A stretch of DNA of 64,000 nucleotides from a virus (IMGVR_UViG_3300013195_000003:1-64000); one strand, 5' to 3'. Counted from the stretch's first letter, positions 8,597-55,928 are shown. The notes: generated by a model not told the origin, from the sequence alone. Numbers and translations are program-made.

Positions 8597-8937
8597 TGAG
8601 TTTTAGGGAATCTGAAGTCGTTCAAAAAGAAATCAAGATCATTAACTCTCTGCAAGATCAGCTTGCAGAGATGACGCTTGCTTTTCCTGCTATGTCAGCT
8701 GACGAGCGTGAAGAGTATGTGGAAATTGTTGAAACTCTTTTAGAAAAGCAAAGAATCTTGTGGATGCGTGTCGAATTGTCAAAGAATGATGACGAAACGG
8801 CAGCATTAATGGCTAATGATGTTCGCAAGGTTATGGATGCTATTGGAATCCCCAAAGACGTTTGTGTGAAAGACGTTTTCAACAACATTGATGAGATGAT
8901 TGACACGTTGAAACGTACCATTGCTGACCTAGACTGA
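8596..8937 (+). CDS. DUF1825 family protein
   Basis: 113 residues, helical. MSFRESEVVQKEIKIINSLQ at the start, an EEYVEIVETLLEKQRILWMRVELS core and a C-terminal MIDTLKRTIADLD match the cyanobacterial DUF1825 family (about 110 residues, starting MSFFDSEIVQ... in hosts). The function of this family is unknown. It is a cyanobacteria-specific gene family carried by the phage, so it may act on a host target. Its start overlaps the preceding stop (TAATG). A 76-base gap with a late box follows. Confidence 0.75.
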   Translation: MSFRESEVVQKEIKIINSLQDQLAEMTLAFPAMSADEREEYVEIVETLLEKQRILWMRVELSKNDDETAALMANDVRKVMDAIGIPKDVCVKDVFNNIDEMIDTLKRTIADLD

Positions 8938-42155: not shown

Positions 42156-42806
42156 ATGAAACCTATTACACCTATTCGTCCTGCTGAGCTGATGCTTGAC
42201 GGGAATTTGACTAAATCAAACTTTGACGACTTCATTGGTGTTTGGGAAGGGTTTATGCCCAAAGCAGAATGCCAAAAATATATTAACTGGTTTGAAAATC
42301 TAGAGAGTAACTCTTGTGTCGTTCAACCTGGAATGGATCCTGGCGAAGTTGCCGATGGTAGATTCCAGTTTGAAATTGGTGGACTAGGGAGACTCGATAA
42401 GCAAACTTTAATTACACATCAAAACCCTGAACTGCAGCAGTGTTGCAATCAATATTTGATGTCAACCCTCGAACACTATATCTCTGAGTTTCCCCAGCTT
42501 GCGAATCAGTCATTGATTAGTAGCTGCATAAAAATGCAGAAGACTGAAGAAGGTGGTGGTTATCACGTCTGGCATTTTGAAGCAATGGGTCTCGATCATT
42601 CATCACGTTGTTTGGTTTGGGCGATTTATCTGAATGATGATTATGAAGGCGGCGAGACTGAGTTTTTGATGCAGAAACGTCGTGTAAATCCTCCCGCAGG
42701 AACTGTAGTTATTTGGCCAGCTGGGTTTACACACCCACACAGAGGAAACACGGTATTAAAAGGCAATAAATATATTTTGACTGGTTGGTATTATCACAAC
42801 TCGTAA
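42156..42806 (+). CDS. 2OG-Fe(II) oxygenase, His-x-Glu type
   Basis: 216 residues. The iron site reads YHVWHFEAMG, giving His140-x-Glu142 in place of the usual His-x-Asp, GGETEFLMQK follows, and PPAGTVVIWPAGFTHPHRGN supplies the distal His193 and nearby Arg. Related proteins in phage and bacterial prolyl-hydroxylase-like families have this arrangement. It directly follows the Ig-bearing collar gene (TAAATG). Substrate unknown; tail proteins or host factors are possible (inference). Confidence 0.78.
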   Translation: MKPITPIRPAELMLDGNLTKSNFDDFIGVWEGFMPKAECQKYINWFENLESNSCVVQPGMDPGEVADGRFQFEIGGLGRLDKQTLITHQNPELQQCCNQYLMSTLEHYISEFPQLANQSLISSCIKMQKTEEGGGYHVWHFEAMGLDHSSRCLVWAIYLNDDYEGGETEFLMQKRRVNPPAGTVVIWPAGFTHPHRGNTVLKGNKYILTGWYYHNS

Positions 42807-44173: not shown

Positions 44174-46795
44174 ATGAGCAATAGAATTATTGCGAGAATT
44201 TCTAAGGAAAATCAAGCTGGCGCTGTTATCGAAAGAGCAAAACAGCGTTTTACTTCACTAAAAAACACCGAAGACTTGAGTAGAGTCAAGACGGTGTTTC
44301 TTGACTTCGATTCAAAAGATGATAATTTCATCAATATACTGAAGGGAGACGAATTCCCTGAGGTCATTGGTGCTCTGTGGGATCGAGAAACTTTTATTGG
44401 TGGAGTCGAAACTCTAGAGGAACAAGTCAGTCCTGAAGGTGATGTTGTAGGAATTTTTAATTCTTTCGATAGACAAGCTGCAGCTGTTGCGGCATCTACT
44501 GAGGAAGATTCTGTTAACCTTATTGCACAGCAAATTAAACCCTCTGATTATGGTAATGTAATCCCGTATACTGTTGGTGCTGGCACTACATACTCAGTTA
44601 CTGCAACTATTACCAATACTTCTAACGGTCCTAAATTTTACATTAATGGTAGTTTTGAGGCACCTGATCTCACTTTCCTTTTTCCTGGTCACGAATTAAT
44701 TATTAATGTTGCTGATAATAGCAACTTCGGATATACACTTGCTTTTTCCGAAACACCTGATGGTACACATAATGGTGGTACTGAGTATAATGTTGGTGTA
44801 TCTAGAACCAACACTCCTGGTACAACTAATGCCGAAGTTCGTTTAGCAGTTTCGCAAACAACTCCTAAGCAGCTTTACATCTACGCCCAAGAGACTCCGC
44901 GAGTGGGTCTGCGTGGTGGCGGATTCTTGAATGCTACCGATCACGGTAAAGTTGCAATGTTTAGTAAGTGGTACTTAGCACGTATCACACAACAGCAGAA
45001 TGGATTGGATTATGGTCTGTTCTCTTACACTGAGCACGGTGACGGTGTTGACTGCTATATTATTGACTCTGGTGTCCGTGGTGCATCACGTCCTACATCT
45101 GCAACAGGTGCTAACCTTCACCCTGAATTGTTCCACCCTGATTATGCAAGTGATCTGAATGATATTTCTAATCAGAACGAATATAGAGTATACGAAGTTC
45201 CTGGGTATAACTCTGGTTACACTGTTAATGGTGAGGCAGACTCTAACGAAGATGACAATGGTCACGGCACAGAGTGCGCCATTATGGTTGGTGGTTTGCA
45301 ACACGGTGTTGCACGTAAGACTAGATTTTATGCTCTGAAAACTCAGGGCAGTAATGGTAGTGGACTGTTGTCCAGCTATGTGTTTGCAATCCTTGCAATC
45401 ATTAATCACAATGATCCGAACCATCCTAACTGGAAAGGTAACAACAGACCTGCTGTGGTGAACGCATCTGTTGGCGTTAATCTTCCTTCAGAGGTTTCTC
45501 CTTTCGTTCCTCAAAACGAACCTGGATTTGATAGTGGTCCATATGAAGCTGATACAGCGATGGATGACTATGAAAATCTTGCTGTAGAGAACGGTATTGT
45601 ATACGTTCGCTCTGCAGGTAACGGTTTTGGTTATAACTTCGCTTACGGTGGTTTCCAAGCTAAGTTCAACCCTGGTCCCCGTACTGCTGGTCCTCAGGAC
45701 TACAGATATAATATGGAGGGTATCAGCGATAAGATTTCTGTCGGTGCTACTGCCTTCGATAATACATTCTCTGGTTTCTCGAACTATGGTCAGGGCGTTA
45801 CTACCAGTGCGCCTGGTGAATCTATCTACTGCCCACATTACTACTGGAACACTAACACTCAGTACAGCTCTGTCACCAGTACTTTCTATGCATACATTAG
45901 AGGTACTTCATTCTCTGGTCCTTTGACTGCTGGTGTTGTTTGTCAGTTCCTTGGTAAGAAAGGTTATCAGAACAGAACAACCTATGAAGGTAAGTCTGTC
46001 CCTAAGCTTGCTAAAGAATGGCTTCGTAGAAGTGTTGATTGGGATTATGAAAGAGATCAGTCACCTGTTGGCGAAGAGTACGGTGGTGGTAGTGTCAATT
46101 TGTATCCTACTGATGACATCGATGAGATTACTCTTGACGGTGTTAATACCTTTATTAATGTTCAGGCTGGTAGTAATGAAGTTACGATTGGTCTTGGTAG
46201 CGAATTTAGTCGCTTCAATCCTGTTTTGGGTGATAAGATCCAGTTCCGTATTCCTGAAGCAATTCCTTCTACGGATGTCATCACCGATATTTGGGTTACC
46301 AGTGATGGATCTCCAACATCAGCATATTATCAATCTGGTGGTCTGTTGAACGTTGTCACTGATAACGATCCTTCTCCTGGTCTTGCTGGTACATTCCCTT
46401 CTGGTGGTACGACTGGTTATGTTTCCACATTGTCTATTCAGAATCAAGGTTCTGGATATACAGTCGTTCCTTCAGTTTCGCTGAATGGTGGCGGTGGTGT
46501 TGGTGCTACAGCAACAGCTGACATTACATTAACTGGTGGTAACGTTACCAGTATTAACGTTGATCAGTCTGGTTCTGGATATACTTCGGCACCTACAGTT
46601 GCAATTGTCGGTGATGGTCAAGGTGCAACAGCTGAAGCTACTATCGCATTGACTGGTGGTGGTGTTGATAGTGTTACTGTTACTAATGGTGGTTCTGGTT
46701 ATAACCCTCTGAACTTGCCTGCTGTTACATTTACTGGCGGTGGGGGGAGGGATGCTACTGCAACAGCAACAGTTGTTGGTGGTATTTTTACTTAA
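44174..46795 (+). CDS. virion-type subtilisin-family serine protease (first part of a broken giant gene)
   Basis: 873 residues up to an in-frame TAA. Complete S8 catalytic set: Asp298 in DCYIIDSGV, His364 in DDNGHGTECA, oxyanion Asn483 in VRSAGNGF, Ser579 in RGTSFSGPLTAG. The first ~100 residues (IIARISKENQAGAVIERAKQ) could be a propeptide, followed by one cupredoxin-like beta domain without metal ligands (about 135-240). After the protease come Gly-rich repeats (GSGYTVVPSVSLNGGGGVGA, GSGYTSAPTVAIVGDGQG, GSGYNPLNLPAVTF). The stop at 46793-46795 falls in such a repeat where the next copy reads GAA. A late box precedes it. It is likely the N-terminal part of one gene with 46740-53957. Confidence 0.85.
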   Translation: MSNRIIARISKENQAGAVIERAKQRFTSLKNTEDLSRVKTVFLDFDSKDDNFINILKGDEFPEVIGALWDRETFIGGVETLEEQVSPEGDVVGIFNSFDRQAAAVAASTEEDSVNLIAQQIKPSDYGNVIPYTVGAGTTYSVTATITNTSNGPKFYINGSFEAPDLTFLFPGHELIINVADNSNFGYTLAFSETPDGTHNGGTEYNVGVSRTNTPGTTNAEVRLAVSQTTPKQLYIYAQETPRVGLRGGGFLNATDHGKVAMFSKWYLARITQQQNGLDYGLFSYTEHGDGVDCYIIDSGVRGASRPTSATGANLHPELFHPDYASDLNDISNQNEYRVYEVPGYNSGYTVNGEADSNEDDNGHGTECAIMVGGLQHGVARKTRFYALKTQGSNGSGLLSSYVFAILAIINHNDPNHPNWKGNNRPAVVNASVGVNLPSEVSPFVPQNEPGFDSGPYEADTAMDDYENLAVENGIVYVRSAGNGFGYNFAYGGFQAKFNPGPRTAGPQDYRYNMEGISDKISVGATAFDNTFSGFSNYGQGVTTSAPGESIYCPHYYWNTNTQYSSVTSTFYAYIRGTSFSGPLTAGVVCQFLGKKGYQNRTTYEGKSVPKLAKEWLRRSVDWDYERDQSPVGEEYGGGSVNLYPTDDIDEITLDGVNTFINVQAGSNEVTIGLGSEFSRFNPVLGDKIQFRIPEAIPSTDVITDIWVTSDGSPTSAYYQSGGLLNVVTDNDPSPGLAGTFPSGGTTGYVSTLSIQNQGSGYTVVPSVSLNGGGGVGATATADITLTGGNVTSINVDQSGSGYTSAPTVAIVGDGQGATAEATIALTGGGVDSVTVTNGGSGYNPLNLPAVTFTGGGGRDATATATVVGGIFT

Positions 46796-49700
46796 ATTAC
46801 TATCAACAATCCTGGTTCTGGGTATTCTGAGGGACCTACAGGGTAGTGATGCTACTGCAACAGCAACAGTTGTTGATGGTATTATTACTGAAATTACTAT
46901 CAACAATCCTGGTTCTGGATATTCTGAGGCACCTACAGTTGGTATTGCACAATCTGCTCCTCCGAATCAGGGTAACGTTGTACACGCACCTGATAGTGAA
47001 TTTGTATCGGGTGGCGGATCTACAACCTCTGCCTCGCTGAATCAAACCACTCGTCTTCTGACTGTGGTTGCTGATAACTTACCTCAACCTGCACTGTATG
47101 GTGCTTTCCCGAATCCTAATAATAGCAATGCTATTACGGGTCAGTCTTATAACCATACTTGGGTCTATCGTGGCGGTAGAAACATTAGTGACGAGACTCC
47201 TACAGCAACAACTGATCAGGATTCTATTGGTATGGCTCTGAATGGTATTCAGCTCCGTCATTATTCGCACGGTCTTAATACTGACCTGCCTGATGGCACT
47301 GGTTGCCCGACTGGTTATACCTTCAATAAGATCTATAATTCCGCAGCTTTTGGTGCTGATAATGGTAGTGGTGTGACAGATTCTTCTGGTGTCTATCACT
47401 ATACCACTGGCAACTTCCTCGTCAATAGTTGGAAAGGTTCTAGTACAACCTATACTGTTACTGTCAGTGATCCTGGATCTGGTAATAAGTATTACTTAAA
47501 TGGTGGATTAACACCGAACATTATTCTGACTGAGGGTAACACATACTACTTTGATCAAAGTGATGCATCCAATGGTGGTTATCCTTTCAGAGTTTCTGCA
47601 ACACAAGATGGCGTTCATACACAAGGTGGTGTAGCTTACGAAATTGGTGTTCGTTATCAGGGCACTCCTGGTGATGGTCAACCTGGCACTGGTTTATATC
47701 TGCAAGTTCAACCTGATGCTCCTAACCTTTTCTACTATTGTTCATTGTATAGTGGTTACGGAAATGCTGCATCGGTTACTACAACTAATAACACAGCTGC
47801 ACTGCCCTCTCACACGACATCTGATATTATTAATGCTACCCATCACTCTCCTGTGATTGGTTATGCATATGATGGATATCCAATTTATGGTCCTATTGGT
47901 TATGCAAGTCCTGGTTCTCCGACCACACTTGCAAGAATGCAATCTTCTTATGGTTTGAAGACGCAGCGCGATGGTCAGCAATATGCTGGTTCTACTTATA
48001 ACTGGAACGTTACTACTGATGATAACTTAGATTATGATTTTACTGGGGAATCTAGTGGTACTGATGTTGCAATCACTGCTAACATCGGTGATAACCTTGT
48101 GTTCAACGTCAATGCTTCTTACACCACTGGTGGTGGCGGCGGTAGCACACCGAATACCTACAACTTAGTTGTTACTGCATCTAGCTTCAGTGATTATACA
48201 GTTTCTGGTTCCGACAGAACTGGTAACATCAATGGTTCTGACCCTGCATTGACATTCTACGAAGGTGATACTATCAACTTCACGGTGTCTGCATCTGGTC
48301 ACCCGTTCTACCTGAAGACACAAGCTGGTACTGGTACTGGCAACCAGATCTCTGGTGTTACTAACCAAGGTACTGAGTCTGGTACTGTTTCTTGGACTCC
48401 TGGTGCTGGTTCTGCTGGTACTTACTACTACCAGTGTGAGTATCACAGTAGTATGGTCGGTACGATCACTATCCAGTCTTCTGGTGGTGGCGGTGGTACA
48501 ACTGTGACCCACCCGATGTGGATCCAGACAGTTCCTGCTCCTTACAACCCGACTCAGGTTGTTGGTGCTGTGACTAACAATGGTAGTCACAATGCTACTA
48601 TTCTGTGGAACACAACAACTGCTGCAGCTGGTACTTACTACTATGTGTCTGAGAATGCTCAGGCAATGACGGGTACGATTACATTGTCCGAACCTGTTGG
48701 TTATGCACCATCTACGACTGCATATCCTATGGGATCATTCGTGGAAGATTACGAATATGTTGGAAATGGTACTCTAGATCGCCGCAATGGTAGATTCTGC
48801 GTAACTCCTGAATTCCCAGGTGGTACTTATGCATACTTTATGACATTTGATGCATCTGCTAATCCGCAGTTCCCATATCTTTTAGGCGATCAATACTATG
48901 GTACAGCAGTAACTGAGTCTGATACTGCACCTCAAAACCCACTGTTTGAACAACCTGCATCAGGTAGTTGTACAATTGGTACCCAGATTGGTGTGGTGGA
49001 TGCTGTTAATGTTATTGAACAAGGTGTTGGTTATACATACGCCAATATCGAGTTTAGTGGTGGCGGCGGCGTTGGTGCACAAGCATCATCTAATATCTCG
49101 GTGCTGGATGGTTATGTGTCTGGTCTGACATTGGTTGATCAAGGTACAGATTATACATCTGCTCCTACTGTTGATATCGATCCTCCAAACGTTGGTGGTG
49201 GTACTCAGGCAACAGGTGTTGCACAGATTGCCATTACTGCTGGTAACCCGAATAGTATCGACAAGCAAAGCTTCAACCAGAACTTTAATTGGAGAGGTGG
49301 TACAAACTATGCTACAGATACTATTGAAGCGAAACCACTGCGCAGTGTAAATCCCTTCGCTATTTCTAGCACGGGCGCATTTATTTACCATTATTCTTAT
49401 GAGAGTGGTCCTACTCCTGGTTGGACATACAATGCTGTTACTAACGGTAACCTTGTAGGCGAAGATGCTTACGGTGGTTTCCCCAACACTAGTAATGTTT
49501 ATGGATACAACTCTAGTAAGCTGTTAGGTGCATATGGTTCTGTTGCAATTGCAGGTTCTAATTATCTCTCTAGTTCTTATTTTGATCTCGGATATCGCAC
49601 CGTCAATTATCTTGTCACTACCGCTGTAAAGACTGAAACCAGTCCTTACTACAACCAAGGTGGTACTCATCAGTATATGCTCCGTGGTGATACGTTTACT

Positions 49701-52700
49701 ACTCCGACTGAGCAACCTCAGATTGATTTTACTAGAGGTAACACGTATATCTTTGATTTAAGTGATGCTAGTAATGATGGTCATCCGATGTACTTCTCTA
49801 CTACCGATGATGGTATCTTCGGTGGTGGTGTTCGCTTCGGCAATGGTATTACTTATCGTTTGGATGGTGCTTCTGTTGATGCAGTTACATTCACTAACAA
49901 CTTTGATAGCGCTACCACTCGTACAATTACGATAGTTGTTCCTCAAGATTGTCCTGCACTTCTGTACTATGTTTGTGTGAATCATCAGAGAATGGGTAAT
50001 CAGATTGTTGTTAACAGCAACATTCAAGGTGATTACAAGCGTCATCCTGATGGTCACTCCAAGATTCTTGGTATGACGTTTGATGGATATCCTCTCTATG
50101 GTCCTTATGGTTACTCTGATCGTGATGATAGCAGCAGTGCTGTCATTCGTATGAAGCCTGCATATCTCCTGAAGCTGGAGAATAGAGTTCCTGATATGTT
50201 CGGTTCGCGTCCTGCGCAAGGTACATATCCTCTCGGAAGCTTTATCGAAGATTTTGAATACCAAGGTGGTGTTGAGGAAGATAACGTTACCGACGTTACT
50301 TTCACTGTACAGGCAGCAACTGCATCGCAAACTGGTAGCGGTGGTCGTTACTATATCTCTGGTGGTTTGTTAACTGGTAGCGCTGAGAAACCAGCTTTCA
50401 ACTTTAAGAAAGGTAGAAAGTACATCTTTAATCTTTCTGATGGTTCTAACGAAACGCACGCTATGCTGTTCTCCACAAGTGGAGATGCACAAGCACAGGG
50501 TTGGCACGTGGCAGGTTCTAGTGTGGGTGATGCAAATGCTGTCTATGGTGCTGGTGTCGTCTATAAGTTAGAAAATGTTGAGGTTGATTATGCTACATAT
50601 GTCGCTGGTTTTGATGCTGCAACTCAGAGAAGCATTGAGTATACTCCTACATCAAATGCACCTCACGTTCTGTACTATTTCTGTTACAACCATCCCAATA
50701 TGGGAGAGCGTATCATTATTGGTGATCTGGACAGCAGAAATGGTCGCTATTGTGTGACACCTGACTATCCGAATGGTACTTACGCATACTTTATTACTGA
50801 GGATAATAATGGTAACCCTGCCTATCCTTATGTGATGGGTGATAATTACTACTCTGATCCTGTCTTCCCTGGTGGATCTGCTACCGAAGGTTCTTCCTAT
50901 GTCTATGACATTGGTGGTCTGCAATTCAACGTGATGCAGAGATATTGGCACGCCATTACGGATGTCAATGCAGGAACTGGTACGATTATGATCGAACCTG
51001 ACGCAGCTCAGTTCACTGGTGTTCAAAATGAAGTTGGTGGCAATCTGATCAAGATTGCAAACCTTGAGGGAACAAAGCAGCGTAGTGATGGTGTTCAACG
51101 TTGGATCGATCAGAACCCTGTTGGTAACAAATTGTACTTCCAGACTGAAGCTCAGGAAGATGCTGGTAGTGGTGAGGGTACTGAGATCATCTATCTGCCT
51201 GTAGATAAGGGTGTTGATGATGGATCTATGAGAGGTTTATTCTCTCCTTATATTGATCTGCTGACCACGTGGTACACACCTGCTGGTGCTCTCGGCACCT
51301 ACAATATCGGTGATACCGTCAATCTGCAACTGGGTGTCTCGTTCCTTAGAACATATGCTGCGGAGACTATTCTTGATCGCGATTACTCTCTGACTGGTGA
51401 CTCTATTGCTAACACTGGTTTGTCATTTGACACTGAAACAGGTGTCTTAAGTGGTATTTTGGTTAATAATACCACTCTTGACCTCACACTGACTGTCGAA
51501 GAGAACATCTCTGGTCAGACTCAGACCTATACTATTCAGCTCACAAACACTACAGTTACTGTACAGAATGTTTCTCTGAAGACCTCTGGTGTTGCTAGAG
51601 CGATTGATTATGCTGCAGTTACTAAGAAAGCTGGACAACCTAATGATGATGCTATCTGGGCAGAGAATGCCTGGTACTCGCGTCCTATGAATTATAAGTC
51701 ATTCTCTGTTCTTGCTTATCAAACAGGTTACGAGAATACTAACTTTGAGTTTATTCCTCAGTGGCAGATCTTTAAAAATAAGGGTGGTGGAACACTGTGG
51801 TATAACTTGAATGAGTTCTCTACTGGTCCTGTTGCAGCTGGTCAGTCTTGCCAGATTGAAGAGGGCGATTGGTTTGAGAACAACTATGATGCTCGTGATC
51901 AGTTCTACGTTTATAATGAAACGTTTGAAGATGTTACTGGACACGAAATTGCTATTTCTTACCTCATTGCTAACAAGTGGTGGAACTATGATCAAGACTT
52001 CTTCCGTTGTAAGCTGCGTTATCGCTTGATCTTTAACTTAGTTGCTAGCGGTAATGATTATGCTGTTGTGGTTAACCAATCTGGTTCCACCGTGTTTGAA
52101 GTTCCTAAGGGTGCTACATATCGTTTCGATGTAAGTGATGCATCCTGGGCGGGTAAGAACCTTGAACTTAGAGAGTCTCCAACGGGCAGTGCATATATCG
52201 GATCTAATGTCAGACGTTATGGTACTCCTGGCACTCCTGGTGCTTGGGTTGATCTTATCGTCGATGAATCGCATCCTGGTTCTGTCTTCTACTTTGGGCA
52301 GACTGGCGGTAGTACATTTGCTTCGCAGCACATTGACTTCACCTCTGTGTTTACTGCGCTGACATCCAATACTGTACAACTTACAGTCAATAATATTCCT
52401 AACGTTCCTGCTCAGCCCCTGCTGACAATGGAATCTGGCGCTACATCTATCACTGCAAATACTTACTCTGTGGTGACTGAGTATGGCGCACTGACACACT
52501 TCCCGAATGAGCTTGCCTATCAATCTTCTGGTAGGTCTCCTAAGGATGGTCGTTATCCTGTTCGCCTGCTCTGCACTGACCAAAACATTGAGTTCAACTG
52601 GTACCGTAAGCTGTACAGTTACGACACCAGTACTGGTGTTAAGTCCTATAACTGGGATACTGTTGCCAATAGTGCCAGCACATATGTGCCCCTGAATTCT

Positions 52701-53957
52701 CCTCACTACAGATCCAGAAGAGATTATGGTAATAGCTTGACCAACTATCACTCTGCTTGCGCACTTGATGGTGCTAGCATCTATCAAGAAAACTACATTA
52801 ATTTGAATGAGGAATTCCCTCTTCGTGTGAACTATGGTGGTCCTCAGATTGAGATTCCTATTCAATCTTCCTCTACATTGAATCCTCCTCTGGCAAATAA
52901 TGGTAGTGTGCTTCGTGTCACTGACCTGCCTTGTAAGGGTGTTCCTCACGGCGAGAATGATCCTTACTCTTATCAGGTTGTGATTGGAAACGGTGCATCT
53001 CTGTCCTCTGTGTCTAACGAGATCAGCGTGATTCCTAACCCACCTGAACTGGGTATGTGGTGGTATGAGTATGATAATGGTTGGTCTGGTACCGTTTCTA
53101 ACGGTTACCTGCGTCACGATCAAGGCTTCGTTGATACTACTCTGACCTGTGGTGATTACTTTGGTAACGTTCTGATTCGCTCCTTCGTTATTGACGTGGG
53201 TCCTGCACCTCTGAGTGCACTGCCTTACATTGATATCAACACACTGCAAGTACAAGATTACTATAAGGGTGCACAGAACTTTACTGTCAGTAACAACCAG
53301 ACTCAGGATGTAACAGTTTCCTACACTATTGATGCTGGTCAGTTTACTTGGAGATTGCGTCTGATTAATGAGTTCCCCTATATGGAGAACGTGGACGGTG
53401 GCACTAGAACTGTGTACACAGTAAATAATCCCACCCACGCTAATGCTCCTACAATTGTTAACACTGGCGACTTCAGCACTTATAGTGGTCAATTAGCAGC
53501 TGCTACTGGTGTTCTTCGTGAGTGTCCCTTCCGTGGTGACACCAACATTAACCTGCCCGTTGACTTCTCGGTGAAGAATGATATTCAACCCGCTATCTTC
53601 CCTGCACGTGGTACTCAAAAGATCTACACACTGTGGGTGGAGCTGGTTGAGTCTCCGTTCGATCTGGTTGACTTGATTAACCTTGTAGCGGTTGCTGATC
53701 CTTGTCAGGATCACACCTATGACTTCGCATACACCTCTAATGGTGCTTGTATTACTCCGTCTAATGACTACTTCTGCAACTTCATCAAACCTCTGCGTGA
53801 TCGTAACCACGCTGAACAACCCATTATCGGTATGGAAGGTGTGGCACAGATCAAGGTAACTGATGGTATTTCGCCAAGAACATTGGACTTCCAAGTCCCT
53901 GCTCCTTGGCCTGTCCTTTACAGCTACCTGGGCGATTGTAACCCCACTTGCGCATAA
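46740..53957 (+). CDS. giant adhesin-like protein with tandem cupredoxin-like and YHYH modules (second part of the broken gene)
   Basis: The coding signal runs from about 46842 to 53957 (about 2370 residues); the first ~35 codons after 46740 are off-frame repeat sequence. Domains in order: end of a GxGY repeat; a degenerate cupredoxin-like domain (nt 47410-47770); YHYH-type module GYAYDGYPIYGPIGY (47850-48060); intact cupredoxin-like domain with HPFYLKT and YYYQCEYHSSM (48165-48477); a partial degenerate copy (YYYVSENAQAM); RRNGRFCVTPEFPGGTYAYF; a GxGY repeat; intact cupredoxin-like domains ending YYVCVNHQRM (about 49980) and YYFCYNHPNM (about 50690) around another YHYH unit; then long beta sequence and a degenerate copy near 52030-52330. 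No transmembrane segment. It is probably a tail fibre or tail-associated protein. Confidence 0.8.
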   Translation: MGGGMLLQQQQLLVVFLLKLLSTILVLGILRDLQGSDATATATVVDGIITEITINNPGSGYSEAPTVGIAQSAPPNQGNVVHAPDSEFVSGGGSTTSASLNQTTRLLTVVADNLPQPALYGAFPNPNNSNAITGQSYNHTWVYRGGRNISDETPTATTDQDSIGMALNGIQLRHYSHGLNTDLPDGTGCPTGYTFNKIYNSAAFGADNGSGVTDSSGVYHYTTGNFLVNSWKGSSTTYTVTVSDPGSGNKYYLNGGLTPNIILTEGNTYYFDQSDASNGGYPFRVSATQDGVHTQGGVAYEIGVRYQGTPGDGQPGTGLYLQVQPDAPNLFYYCSLYSGYGNAASVTTTNNTAALPSHTTSDIINATHHSPVIGYAYDGYPIYGPIGYASPGSPTTLARMQSSYGLKTQRDGQQYAGSTYNWNVTTDDNLDYDFTGESSGTDVAITANIGDNLVFNVNASYTTGGGGGSTPNTYNLVVTASSFSDYTVSGSDRTGNINGSDPALTFYEGDTINFTVSASGHPFYLKTQAGTGTGNQISGVTNQGTESGTVSWTPGAGSAGTYYYQCEYHSSMVGTITIQSSGGGGGTTVTHPMWIQTVPAPYNPTQVVGAVTNNGSHNATILWNTTTAAAGTYYYVSENAQAMTGTITLSEPVGYAPSTTAYPMGSFVEDYEYVGNGTLDRRNGRFCVTPEFPGGTYAYFMTFDASANPQFPYLLGDQYYGTAVTESDTAPQNPLFEQPASGSCTIGTQIGVVDAVNVIEQGVGYTYANIEFSGGGGVGAQASSNISVLDGYVSGLTLVDQGTDYTSAPTVDIDPPNVGGGTQATGVAQIAITAGNPNSIDKQSFNQNFNWRGGTNYATDTIEAKPLRSVNPFAISSTGAFIYHYSYESGPTPGWTYNAVTNGNLVGEDAYGGFPNTSNVYGYNSSKLLGAYGSVAIAGSNYLSSSYFDLGYRTVNYLVTTAVKTETSPYYNQGGTHQYMLRGDTFTTPTEQPQIDFTRGNTYIFDLSDASNDGHPMYFSTTDDGIFGGGVRFGNGITYRLDGASVDAVTFTNNFDSATTRTITIVVPQDCPALLYYVCVNHQRMGNQIVVNSNIQGDYKRHPDGHSKILGMTFDGYPLYGPYGYSDRDDSSSAVIRMKPAYLLKLENRVPDMFGSRPAQGTYPLGSFIEDFEYQGGVEEDNVTDVTFTVQAATASQTGSGGRYYISGGLLTGSAEKPAFNFKKGRKYIFNLSDGSNETHAMLFSTSGDAQAQGWHVAGSSVGDANAVYGAGVVYKLENVEVDYATYVAGFDAATQRSIEYTPTSNAPHVLYYFCYNHPNMGERIIIGDLDSRNGRYCVTPDYPNGTYAYFITEDNNGNPAYPYVMGDNYYSDPVFPGGSATEGSSYVYDIGGLQFNVMQRYWHAITDVNAGTGTIMIEPDAAQFTGVQNEVGGNLIKIANLEGTKQRSDGVQRWIDQNPVGNKLYFQTEAQEDAGSGEGTEIIYLPVDKGVDDGSMRGLFSPYIDLLTTWYTPAGALGTYNIGDTVNLQLGVSFLRTYAAETILDRDYSLTGDSIANTGLSFDTETGVLSGILVNNTTLDLTLTVEENISGQTQTYTIQLTNTTVTVQNVSLKTSGVARAIDYAAVTKKAGQPNDDAIWAENAWYSRPMNYKSFSVLAYQTGYENTNFEFIPQWQIFKNKGGGTLWYNLNEFSTGPVAAGQSCQIEEGDWFENNYDARDQFYVYNETFEDVTGHEIAISYLIANKWWNYDQDFFRCKLRYRLIFNLVASGNDYAVVVNQSGSTVFEVPKGATYRFDVSDASWAGKNLELRESPTGSAYIGSNVRRYGTPGTPGAWVDLIVDESHPGSVFYFGQTGGSTFASQHIDFTSVFTALTSNTVQLTVNNIPNVPAQPLLTMESGATSITANTYSVVTEYGALTHFPNELAYQSSGRSPKDGRYPVRLLCTDQNIEFNWYRKLYSYDTSTGVKSYNWDTVANSASTYVPLNSPHYRSRRDYGNSLTNYHSACALDGASIYQENYINLNEEFPLRVNYGGPQIEIPIQSSSTLNPPLANNGSVLRVTDLPCKGVPHGENDPYSYQVVIGNGASLSSVSNEISVIPNPPELGMWWYEYDNGWSGTVSNGYLRHDQGFVDTTLTCGDYFGNVLIRSFVIDVGPAPLSALPYIDINTLQVQDYYKGAQNFTVSNNQTQDVTVSYTIDAGQFTWRLRLINEFPYMENVDGGTRTVYTVNNPTHANAPTIVNTGDFSTYSGQLAAATGVLRECPFRGDTNINLPVDFSVKNDIQPAIFPARGTQKIYTLWVELVESPFDLVDLINLVAVADPCQDHTYDFAYTSNGACITPSNDYFCNFIKPLRDRNHAEQPIIGMEGVAQIKVTDGISPRTLDFQVPAPWPVLYSYLGDCNPTCA
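46751..46944 (+). repeat. 97-base tandem repeat at the protease/adhesin junction
   Basis: Copies 46751-46847 and 46848-46944 both begin GATGCTACTGCAACAGCAAC and agree except at about five positions. Copy 1 has ACTTAA where copy 2 has ACTGAA (stop versus Glu). 97 bases is not a multiple of three, so the frame changes from one copy to the next. Confidence 0.85.
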
Positions 53958-53981: not shown

Positions 53982-55928
53982 ATGGCATTAATTTTCCCAC
54001 CCGCTCTTGGGAGTATTCCATCGCCTGCATCGTTGACACCAACTTTAGTCTCCACTACATTTAGTGGAGAGACTGGGGTTGGTGCGCACGACTCGACAGA
54101 CTGGCAAATTGCCACAGAGAATACTTTCAGCTCAGCTTCTTTAGTCTATAACCAGAATGATACCGTCAACTTAACATCGTTGACAATTCCGTCTTCTACA
54201 TTATCTTCTGATACTTTTTATTATGTTCGTATCAGACATCGCGATGATGCGGGTGAGATTTCTAATTGGTCGCAAGTAGCAGAATTTAACACTGGTCTTC
54301 CGATTGGTACGCCAACGGTTACAGTTAGTTCACCTACTCCATTAGTTCCTGTTATTGTATCATCAGCTTTCGCTGGTGCTAATACACATACTAGATCTGA
54401 TTGGCAAATTGCTACTGATATCCTGTTCACCAATATTGTTGAGCAGTTAATTGATAGTCCTTCCAGTCTGAATCAATATTCGCCACAAAGCTTGGTATAT
54501 AATACTCTGTATTATGTTAGAGTAAGATATAAAGATAATTTAAATACCTATTCTGACTACAGTGCTCCTGTATCATTCTATACAGATACACAAACGAATG
54601 TCAATCCTAAGATTGATCGCCCTTCAATTTTAGCACCAGTCGATAATGCTTCTAATGTAACCATTACACCCACAATTACATCGAGTGGTTTTAGTGGTGC
54701 TAATGGTGCAACGCACGTGTCTTCTACCTGGGAAGTTGCATTTACACCTACATTTGGCAGTAGTTCTGGTCTAGCACCTGGAGCTGTTGGTACTACTTCT
54801 CCTCAGATTGAAAATACTAGCGGTCTGATTTATAGATCTGCAGGTGATATTAACAACAAAACTTCTATCACTCTCCAATCTGGCATTTTAGAAGAAGCGA
54901 AAACATATTATGTTCGTGTTCGTTATGAATATATTGACCTTCAAAATACCAGCTGGTACTCAGAATGGTCGGAACCAATTCAGTTCAATACTGTTGCTGT
55001 TCCTGGTGAGGTTCAATGTCCCTCTGTTACAAGTGTGATCGAATCCACTATCTATGATAGAATGGATGTTACGACATCGACATATGTTGCAACTCAAACA
55101 GCTGGACAAACTCACGTTCATAGTGACTGGCAGGTTGCAACAGATGCTGGATTTACAAATTTAGTGATTGTCGCAACTGAGGATAATACGAACAAAACTC
55201 TGTTCCCAATTCCTCTCGATTCTATTCGTCCTTCTACAAACTATTATGTTAGAGTTCGTTACTATAATGGCAGCATTTACTCTGCTTATTCTCCTGGGTA
55301 CGTCTTCCAATCGCCTGCAACCGCAACTGGTACCCTGCAAGATTTCACGCGAGTCCAGACGGACACGCTAGATGACCTCTCGGTGTCCACAAACAAGATC
55401 ATTAACTTGAGTGTGACGACACCGAAACTGGGAGACAATGCTGTGACAGCAGCTAAGATCGCCACAGGTGGTATCATCGCTACTAACCTCCAAAACGGAG
55501 CAATCACTGAACCTAAGTTATATCAAGTAAGTGGTAGTGAAGCAGTCACCACACCCACAATGCGTGATGGTGCTGTGACTTCACCTAAGTTAGCTGATGG
55601 TGCAGCAACTTCATCCAAGATTGACATCAGTGGTGCTACTGATCCTGTTTCACCTGTTGAGGGTCAAGTGTTTTATAACACTGCTCAAAGCACATTCAAA
55701 ACATATAATGGTACAAACTGGAAAGAGTCTGGTGATGCTGGTGACTACTACATCATCCGCAAACCAACGCCAGGCAATACGAACTTAACAGTTGTTTACG
55801 CTGGTAGACAAACTAACATTTCGTATGCAGAATACTCTGCAGCAGAGAATACCCACCAGTTCTTCGCACCAAGCGGTCTGGAATTCAATATAGATAGTAG
55901 TGGGCATCTTGTCGTCACCGTAAGATAA
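53982..55928 (+). CDS. tail fibre protein with four FN3-like repeats
   Basis: 648 residues. Four repeats, each with a HxxSDWQIATD-like turn and a closing TYYVRVRY strand: AHDSTDWQIATENTF/FYYVRIRHRDD, THTRSDWQIATDILF/LYYVRVRYKDN, THVSSTWEVAFTPTF/TYYVRVRYEYID, THVHSDWQVATDAGF/NYYVRVRYYNG. A C-terminal stalk follows (about 440-570) with heptad-like AVTAAKIATGG, GAVTSPKLADG, GAATSSKIDIS, then EGQVFYNTAQSTFKTYNGTN, a typical fibre knob strand. It is an adsorption fibre. Its stop (TAAATGG) overlaps the next start. Confidence 0.75.
   Translation: MALIFPPALGSIPSPASLTPTLVSTTFSGETGVGAHDSTDWQIATENTFSSASLVYNQNDTVNLTSLTIPSSTLSSDTFYYVRIRHRDDAGEISNWSQVAEFNTGLPIGTPTVTVSSPTPLVPVIVSSAFAGANTHTRSDWQIATDILFTNIVEQLIDSPSSLNQYSPQSLVYNTLYYVRVRYKDNLNTYSDYSAPVSFYTDTQTNVNPKIDRPSILAPVDNASNVTITPTITSSGFSGANGATHVSSTWEVAFTPTFGSSSGLAPGAVGTTSPQIENTSGLIYRSAGDINNKTSITLQSGILEEAKTYYVRVRYEYIDLQNTSWYSEWSEPIQFNTVAVPGEVQCPSVTSVIESTIYDRMDVTTSTYVATQTAGQTHVHSDWQVATDAGFTNLVIVATEDNTNKTLFPIPLDSIRPSTNYYVRVRYYNGSIYSAYSPGYVFQSPATATGTLQDFTRVQTDTLDDLSVSTNKIINLSVTTPKLGDNAVTAAKIATGGIIATNLQNGAITEPKLYQVSGSEAVTTPTMRDGAVTSPKLADGAATSSKIDISGATDPVSPVEGQVFYNTAQSTFKTYNGTNWKESGDAGDYYIIRKPTPGNTNLTVVYAGRQTNISYAEYSAAENTHQFFAPSGLEFNIDSSGHLVVTVR

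Follow-up and report, generated by a model that had tools for sequence, protein, structure and literature searches.

Cupredoxin-like domains of a giant tail gene

The window analysed here comprises 64,000 nucleotides (nt) of a 105-kb viral contig (IMGVR_UViG_3300013195_000003:1-64000) with genes for tail fibre, collar, baseplate hub and baseplate wedge proteins. Here, we describe a giant gene on its plus strand, which encodes a subtilisin-like S8 peptidase in its 5' part, followed by an open reading frame (ORF) with two YHYH units (PF14240) and six cupredoxin-like domains (D1 to D6); a further copy lies in the protease part. The domains were detected with a hidden Markov model (HMM) for the relatives, in which the four ligand columns were masked, so that the ligands themselves could not drive detection. 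This model was used to search the window and the fetched loci (designated L plus number), and every cupredoxin-like domain found on the contig belongs to the giant gene:

46740-53957, + strand: ORF with two YHYH units and six cupredoxin-like domains, 2405 codons
44594-44905, + strand: degenerate cupredoxin in the protease part (Y-A-T-V at the ligand positions; masked HMM E 4.7e-31)
47445-47783, + strand: D1, degenerate cupredoxin (Y-C-Y-Y; CSLYSGYGN at 47739; masked HMM E 3.3e-31)
48153-48479, + strand: D2, intact cupredoxin (His 48300, Cys 48435, His 48444, Met 48453)
48504-48686, + strand: D3, half-length cupredoxin, degenerate in the window (SENAQAM at 48648; masked HMM)
49635-50018, + strand: D4, intact cupredoxin (His 49782, Cys 49974, His 49983, Met 49992; masked HMM E 5.6e-36)
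50307-50720, + strand: D5, intact cupredoxin (His 50457, Cys 50682, His 50691, Met 50700; masked HMM E 7.2e-28)
52041-52304, + strand: D6, degenerate cupredoxin-like domain (YFGQTGG at 52290; masked HMM E 1.8e-20)

A first-pass annotation of this DNA had proposed three intact and several degenerate copper-type sites in a tail protein, and all of these motifs were recovered. CEYHSSM lies exactly where it had been placed (48435-48455), with the upstream His in HPF at 48300, and CVNHQRM (49974-49994, upstream HPM at 49782) and CYNHPNM (50682-50702, upstream HAM at 50457) lie within 2 and 1 nt of their first placement, respectively. The degenerate motifs CSLYSGYGN, SENAQAM and YFGQTGG are likewise present, as is the degenerate copy in the protease part. 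At the composition of this protein, only 0.003 occurrences of C..H..M are expected by chance; composition shuffles contained one such motif in 11 of 3000 cases and two in none of the 3000.

For D2, AlphaFold2 (48 sequences) gave a confident model with a mean predicted local distance difference test (pLDDT) score of 97.1 and a predicted template modelling (pTM) score of 0.89. All 50 listed matches in a Foldseek comparison with the PDB are of the cupredoxin fold (probability 0.99-1.00) and nearly all are copper proteins, led by rusticyanin and AcoP and including plastocyanin, amicyanin, nitrite reductase, laccase, CuA and the purple cupredoxin of Nitrosopumilus. D4 and D5 were also modelled confidently, with the ligands in the same register as in D2: the first His stands two residues before a strand, Cys ends another strand, and the loop after the Cys strand carries the second His (+3) and Met (+6). 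These models point to a Greek-key beta sandwich matching solved cupredoxins and, as far as topology and alignment indicate, do not place Cys, His and Met far apart. Consistently, a sequence profile retrieved 28 PDB sequences at E<=0.1, all of them copper proteins, and in the alignment His, Cys, His and Met fall on the ligands of plastocyanin. D2, D4 and D5 thus combine two His and a Cys at equivalent positions with an axial residue of the Met/Gln type, as in a type 1 copper site. The designation of these sites as plastocyanin-type holds for the order of the ligands (His...Cys...His...Met) but not for their spacing, since the Cys-x2-His-x2-Met loop is that of amicyanin. A multicopper oxidase or nitrite reductase function was considered and rejected: the intact sites are of the Cys-x2-His type without adjacent His pairs, type 2/3 ligands are missing, and the Foldseek matches of a two-domain model have root-mean-square deviations of 19-29 Angstrom.

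Ligand conservation among relatives

Altogether, the masked HMM found 282 domains in 166 sequences, of which 196 carry His-Cys-His-Met and 14 His-Cys-His-Gln. After removal of domains with >80% identity, all four ligands (Met or Gln) were present in 79 of 115 domains, compared with 36 expected from the column frequencies and a maximum of 47 in shuffles. Among 143 representatives with four readable columns, His-Cys-His is kept in 110, with Met (98), Gln (10) or Lys (2) as axial residue, and in each of the remaining 33 the second His is missing. Off-bait domains show the full His-Cys-His-Met set in 26 of 54 deduplicated cases, most of the remaining ones being broken at several positions; the gp9-type C-terminal copies, part of which served as search bait, are intact in 97 of 99. 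In a tree calculated without the ligand columns, the state changes between intact and degenerate at least 11 times.

Within the orthologs of the giant gene, each position has its own history. In all of them, D2 and D5 are intact and D1 and D6 degenerate; the protease-part copy is degenerate throughout the window's group, its equivalent in the cultured Prochlorococcus phage P-HM1 being intact. D3 is intact (CENHQDM-type) in most orthologs and lost only in the window and in L010/L013; D4 is of the Met type in most, carries an axial Gln in L010/L013 and has lost the site in L016-L018 and L021. Such a pattern, with sites kept at some positions and released at others, is expected if a metal is required only at particular positions.

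Some variants deserve mention in their own right. D3 begins at the strand of the first His and lacks the N-terminal half of the fold, although most orthologs have the full ligand set. A subgroup with the motif W-C-H-x-H-x2-Q combines an axial Gln with an extra His beside Cys (e.g., L041 7962-8315, L030 4935-5318, L045 8154-8528, L025 3292-3672 and others). In cyanophage PSS2, gp080 (L254 2956-3294) is a free-standing, single-domain degenerate cupredoxin encoded directly 3' of the tape measure gene.

Insertion into YHYH domains

The first-pass annotation had spoken of tandem domains. Multiple copies are indeed present, but they do not form a simple tandem, as D1, D4, D5 and the D2-D3 pair are inserted in two YHYH domains:

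47130-48930 (approximate), + strand: YHYH unit 1 (PF14240), with D1 and the D2-D3 pair as insertions
49254-50858, + strand: YHYH unit 2 (by alignment), with D4 and D5 as insertions

The protein clearly exceeds the gathering cut-off of PF14240 (155.4 versus 25 bits, E 2.2e-45), and the alignment of unit 2 shows the invariants R-H-x2-G-H-S-K and D-G-x-P-x-Y-G. The insertion is reflected in motif distances: from H-S-P...D-G-Y-P-I-Y-G to N-G-R, bacterial YHYH proteins span 74 amino acids (aa) upward (median 87) and plain phage copies 74-78, compared with 204-324 where a cupredoxin is inserted. In a model of the whole YHYH unit, the N-terminal residues 1-114 have a pLDDT below 50.

YHYH proteins have been predicted to be tail-associated Zn-dependent hydrolases (PMC7824862), and the GHP...YHYH histidine motif is presumably part of the predicted Zn site. 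This motif is absent from both units of the window. Scored by a regular expression on related units, it is kept by none of 34 distinct nested viral units versus 9 of 14 plain viral units, counts that are descriptive. From the sequences, the nested units have thus probably lost the predicted hydrolase activity. A plain YHYH domain with intact motif, followed by what appears by eye to be an esterase/depolymerase-like domain, occurs in a protein of S-SSM4 (L008 4829-6601). Matches of the YHYH profile to endo-arabinanases (E 4e-4) covered only a short, weak stretch and were discarded.

The association with cupredoxins does not seem to be a known cellular one, as 77 of 80 YHYH loci in genome contigs have no cupredoxin either within the ORF or in the surroundings up to 8 kb away, and the remaining three (L172, L173 and L188) all look phage-derived. 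At L188, on a contig of the flavobacterial isolate Nonlabens xiamenensis, the ORF at 8869 has an intact C-terminal cupredoxin (aa 396-497) adjoining the YHYH match, and this locus is possibly a prophage.

Baseplate identity and occurrence in cyanophages

That the gene encodes a tail protein, as first annotated, is borne out by its similarities and its surroundings. ORF 46740-53957 matches PHROG 708 (baseplate wedge subunit) with an E-value of 1.6e-143, further matches are to the baseplate families PHROG 2885 and 677, and the neighbouring genes encode tail fibre and collar proteins. The resemblance to annotated wedge proteins therefore suggests that the product belongs to the baseplate or tail.

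In tblastn searches against 50,697 phage records, the gp9-type domain matched 344 records, the D5-type 288 and the D2-type 258, nearly all of them from Synechococcus or Prochlorococcus phages and a few from marine or Pelagibacter phages. The listed annotations mostly read "hypothetical protein", "structural protein", gp9 or "baseplate wedge", and copper is mentioned in none of them. Among the viral structures in BFVD are tail fibres and S8 peptidase proteins from two Synechococcus phages, ACG-2014e and ACG-2014h. When cellular relatives of the gp9-type cupredoxin were sought genome-wide, 38 pattern matches emerged, none of which was confirmed by tblastn. Copper-type arrays on a phage tail had been put forward as new, and we found no description of cupredoxin or copper-binding domains in phage tails in the open-licence literature, against which novelty was judged (automatic "cupredoxin" annotations may exist in databases); they are, however, not unique to one protein but widespread in cyanophage baseplates. 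Fold and site as such are already known, and what appears to be new at the sequence level is a conserved copper-type site as a standard element of phage baseplate proteins, nested in YHYH domains.

Integrity and surroundings of the gene

In the window, the giant gene is interrupted between its protease and its YHYH part:

44174-46795, + strand: S8 peptidase ORF, 5' part of the giant gene (Pfam PF00082, E 9e-24)
46751-46940 (about), + strand: near-duplicate stretch that puts the gene halves in different frames (single ORF in relatives)
53982-55928, + strand: downstream immunoglobulin (Ig)-like protein, first 186 aa matching the C-terminal part of PHROG 27200

The S8 ORF terminates at a TAA within a GSGY-type repeat, where a stretch of about 95 bases is repeated, with differences, in another frame (84-87% in translation). 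The start at 46740 is out of frame, so that the first ~34 codons of the downstream ORF are an out-of-frame reading. In the relatives L009 and L010, a single ORF of 3239-3242 codons covers both protease and YHYH part, and the fusion is likewise present in other orthologs. Because homopolymers are among the features that differ between the copies, the near-duplicate stretch is probably an artefact of assembly or sequencing, the alternative being a real lesion.

The S8 peptidase ORF has tblastn matches in the cultured phages P-HM1, P-HM2 and MED4-213, and the PHROG 27200 family also contains a protease and a cupredoxin. Similar in layout is PHM1_104 of P-HM1 (PHROG 27200-like, annotated as Ig V-set domain), which also combines an S8 protease with cupredoxins and has a 2OG-Fe(II) oxygenase gene upstream; unlike the window's gene, it has about 1830 codons and two detected cupredoxins, both intact, whereas the copy in the window's protease part is degenerate. 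In the window, the oxygenase gene lies at 42156-42803, just upstream of the S8 protease, and its P-HM1 counterpart PHM1_101 occupies the same place. The G-S-G-Y...P-T-V repeat of the protease part (46409-46940) recurs in tail proteins of unrelated phages including coliphages, e.g., in a tail protein of Escherichia phage Alux-21.

Discussion

Based on the fold, ligand register, conservation, nesting and distribution observed in silico, we consider it probable, with some reservation, that D2, D4 and D5 are copper-binding cupredoxin modules of the baseplate, in which the metal contributes to stability or host contact. Ligand identity, placement by homology and conservation make copper binding the most likely function of these sites. 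Each intact domain would be a beta sandwich holding one copper ion through His, Cys, His and Met, all presented at the same end, and such modules would sit at the C-terminus of gp9 and within the YHYH domains of wedge and giant tail proteins. The nested YHYH units, being devoid of a histidine motif of their own, could serve as a scaffold, with the copper sites being retained. The metal, whose identity as copper and time of loading we infer, would make each domain a rigid surface module that resists proteases where the tail faces the host, thereby supplying stability and contact with the host surface, and copies not needing the metal (D1, D6 and the protease copy) would decay to plain structural domains. 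Electron transfer, copper capture or receptor docking are possible roles as well.

Known systems share parts of this arrangement. Plastocyanin, amicyanin and rusticyanin (PF00127) have the same fold, ligand order and ligand positions, with the loop spacing as in amicyanin; the copies described here differ in being repeated, fused and nested in large virion-type proteins, in having Pro or Ala after the first His and in scoring below the family cut-offs. With YHYH proteins, the window's protein shares the H-S and D-G-Y-P-x-Y-G core in both units, but cellular loci lack the cupredoxin and nested phage units the histidine motif. An intact cupredoxin forms the C-terminus of cyanophage gp9 (baseplate wedge tail fibre connector, PHROG 677), and the cyanophage wedge YHYH protein (PHROG 708) bears nested ones; the window's protein differs in being fused to an S8 protease, in its much larger size and in having as many as seven copies. 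In phage tail fibres, HxH iron sites (T4 gp37 type) are also a metal-site array on the host-facing tail, with another fold, other ligands and probably another metal.

Several observations weigh against copper-binding modules. The window's domains stay below the cut-offs of PF00127 (D2 with 15.9 versus 21.2 bits) and of the plastocyanin model TIGR02656 (19.2 versus 87.85 bits), whose loop is Cys-x2-His-x4-Met rather than the Cys-x2-His-x2-Met of the window; among relatives, 6 of 48 match PF00127 at E<=0.01 (best 5.4e-07). The Foldseek TM-scores of D2 are moderate (0.5-0.6), and Cys and the second His change jointly in three of four supported pairs, which are too few for significance. The virion proteome of S-CREM2 was rejected as support for a virion location, as no cupredoxin was detected within the baseplate stretch examined. 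Moreover, virions are assembled in the cytoplasm, where free copper is scarce, and the persistence of several degenerate copies implies that the fold can work without metal.

Other explanations compete with copper-binding modules. The sites could hold a non-copper occupant such as zinc from the host cytoplasm in a structural role, in keeping with cytoplasmic assembly and with the ability of cupredoxin sites to accept zinc or other metals in vitro; we regard this as unlikely, as ligand set and spacing are those of a type 1 copper site and the alternative axial Gln is itself known from a copper protein, stellacyanin. Mere reuse of a stable fold, as already suggested in the first-pass annotation, would make the domains a display module comparable to phage Ig-like domains, with inherited ligands and no metal in the virion. 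This describes D1, D6 and the protease copy well, which are retained though degenerate throughout, and fits the variation of the D3 and D4 sites as well as the free-standing degenerate PSS2_gp080. It does not describe D2 and D5, which are always intact, nor the retention of the gp9 domain, the 110 of 143 representatives keeping His-Cys-His, or an axial residue that switches only to Gln or Lys while the triad is kept, and as a general explanation it appears improbable.

Two further options assign copper an active role. Virion copper might aid docking on host copper or metallophore receptors, or buffer copper around the copper-sensitive picocyanobacteria. The domain does sit in cyanophage gp9, the tail-fibre connector, and a precedent exists in an iron-based hypothesis of this kind for tail fibres with HxH motifs (PMC11705849). 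Such a "Trojan horse" or capture role is nevertheless doubtful in our view. Regarding copper, we know of no receptor that would serve it. Alternatively, the type 1 sites, which are redox sites in characterised relatives, could transfer electrons to the metal centre of YHYH, the predicted Zn-dependent hydrolase, or to a component of the host surface; as the histidine motif is missing from every nested YHYH unit found and neither the His-Cys-His bridge of multicopper oxidases nor type 2/3 ligands are present, a redox enzyme is very unlikely.

Copper-binding modules giving stability or host contact hence remain the explanation we prefer. A farther-reaching version, in which marine T4-like phages carry baseplate arrays of copper-loaded type 1 sites that function in infection as a docking device or as a redox switch sensing or modifying the host envelope, with YHYH domains as scaffolds, is speculative and unlikely to hold in full.

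Should these sites indeed bind copper, the metal would be present at the host-facing end of several hundred sequenced cyanophages and presumably of very many virions in the ocean. Copper would then join the discussion on iron in phage tails, and viruses could provide a path for its transport in the ocean. Moreover, domains now annotated as "hypothetical protein", "structural protein" or by plain baseplate names would gain a function, and copper binding would offer a new handle on the workings of the cyanophage baseplate.

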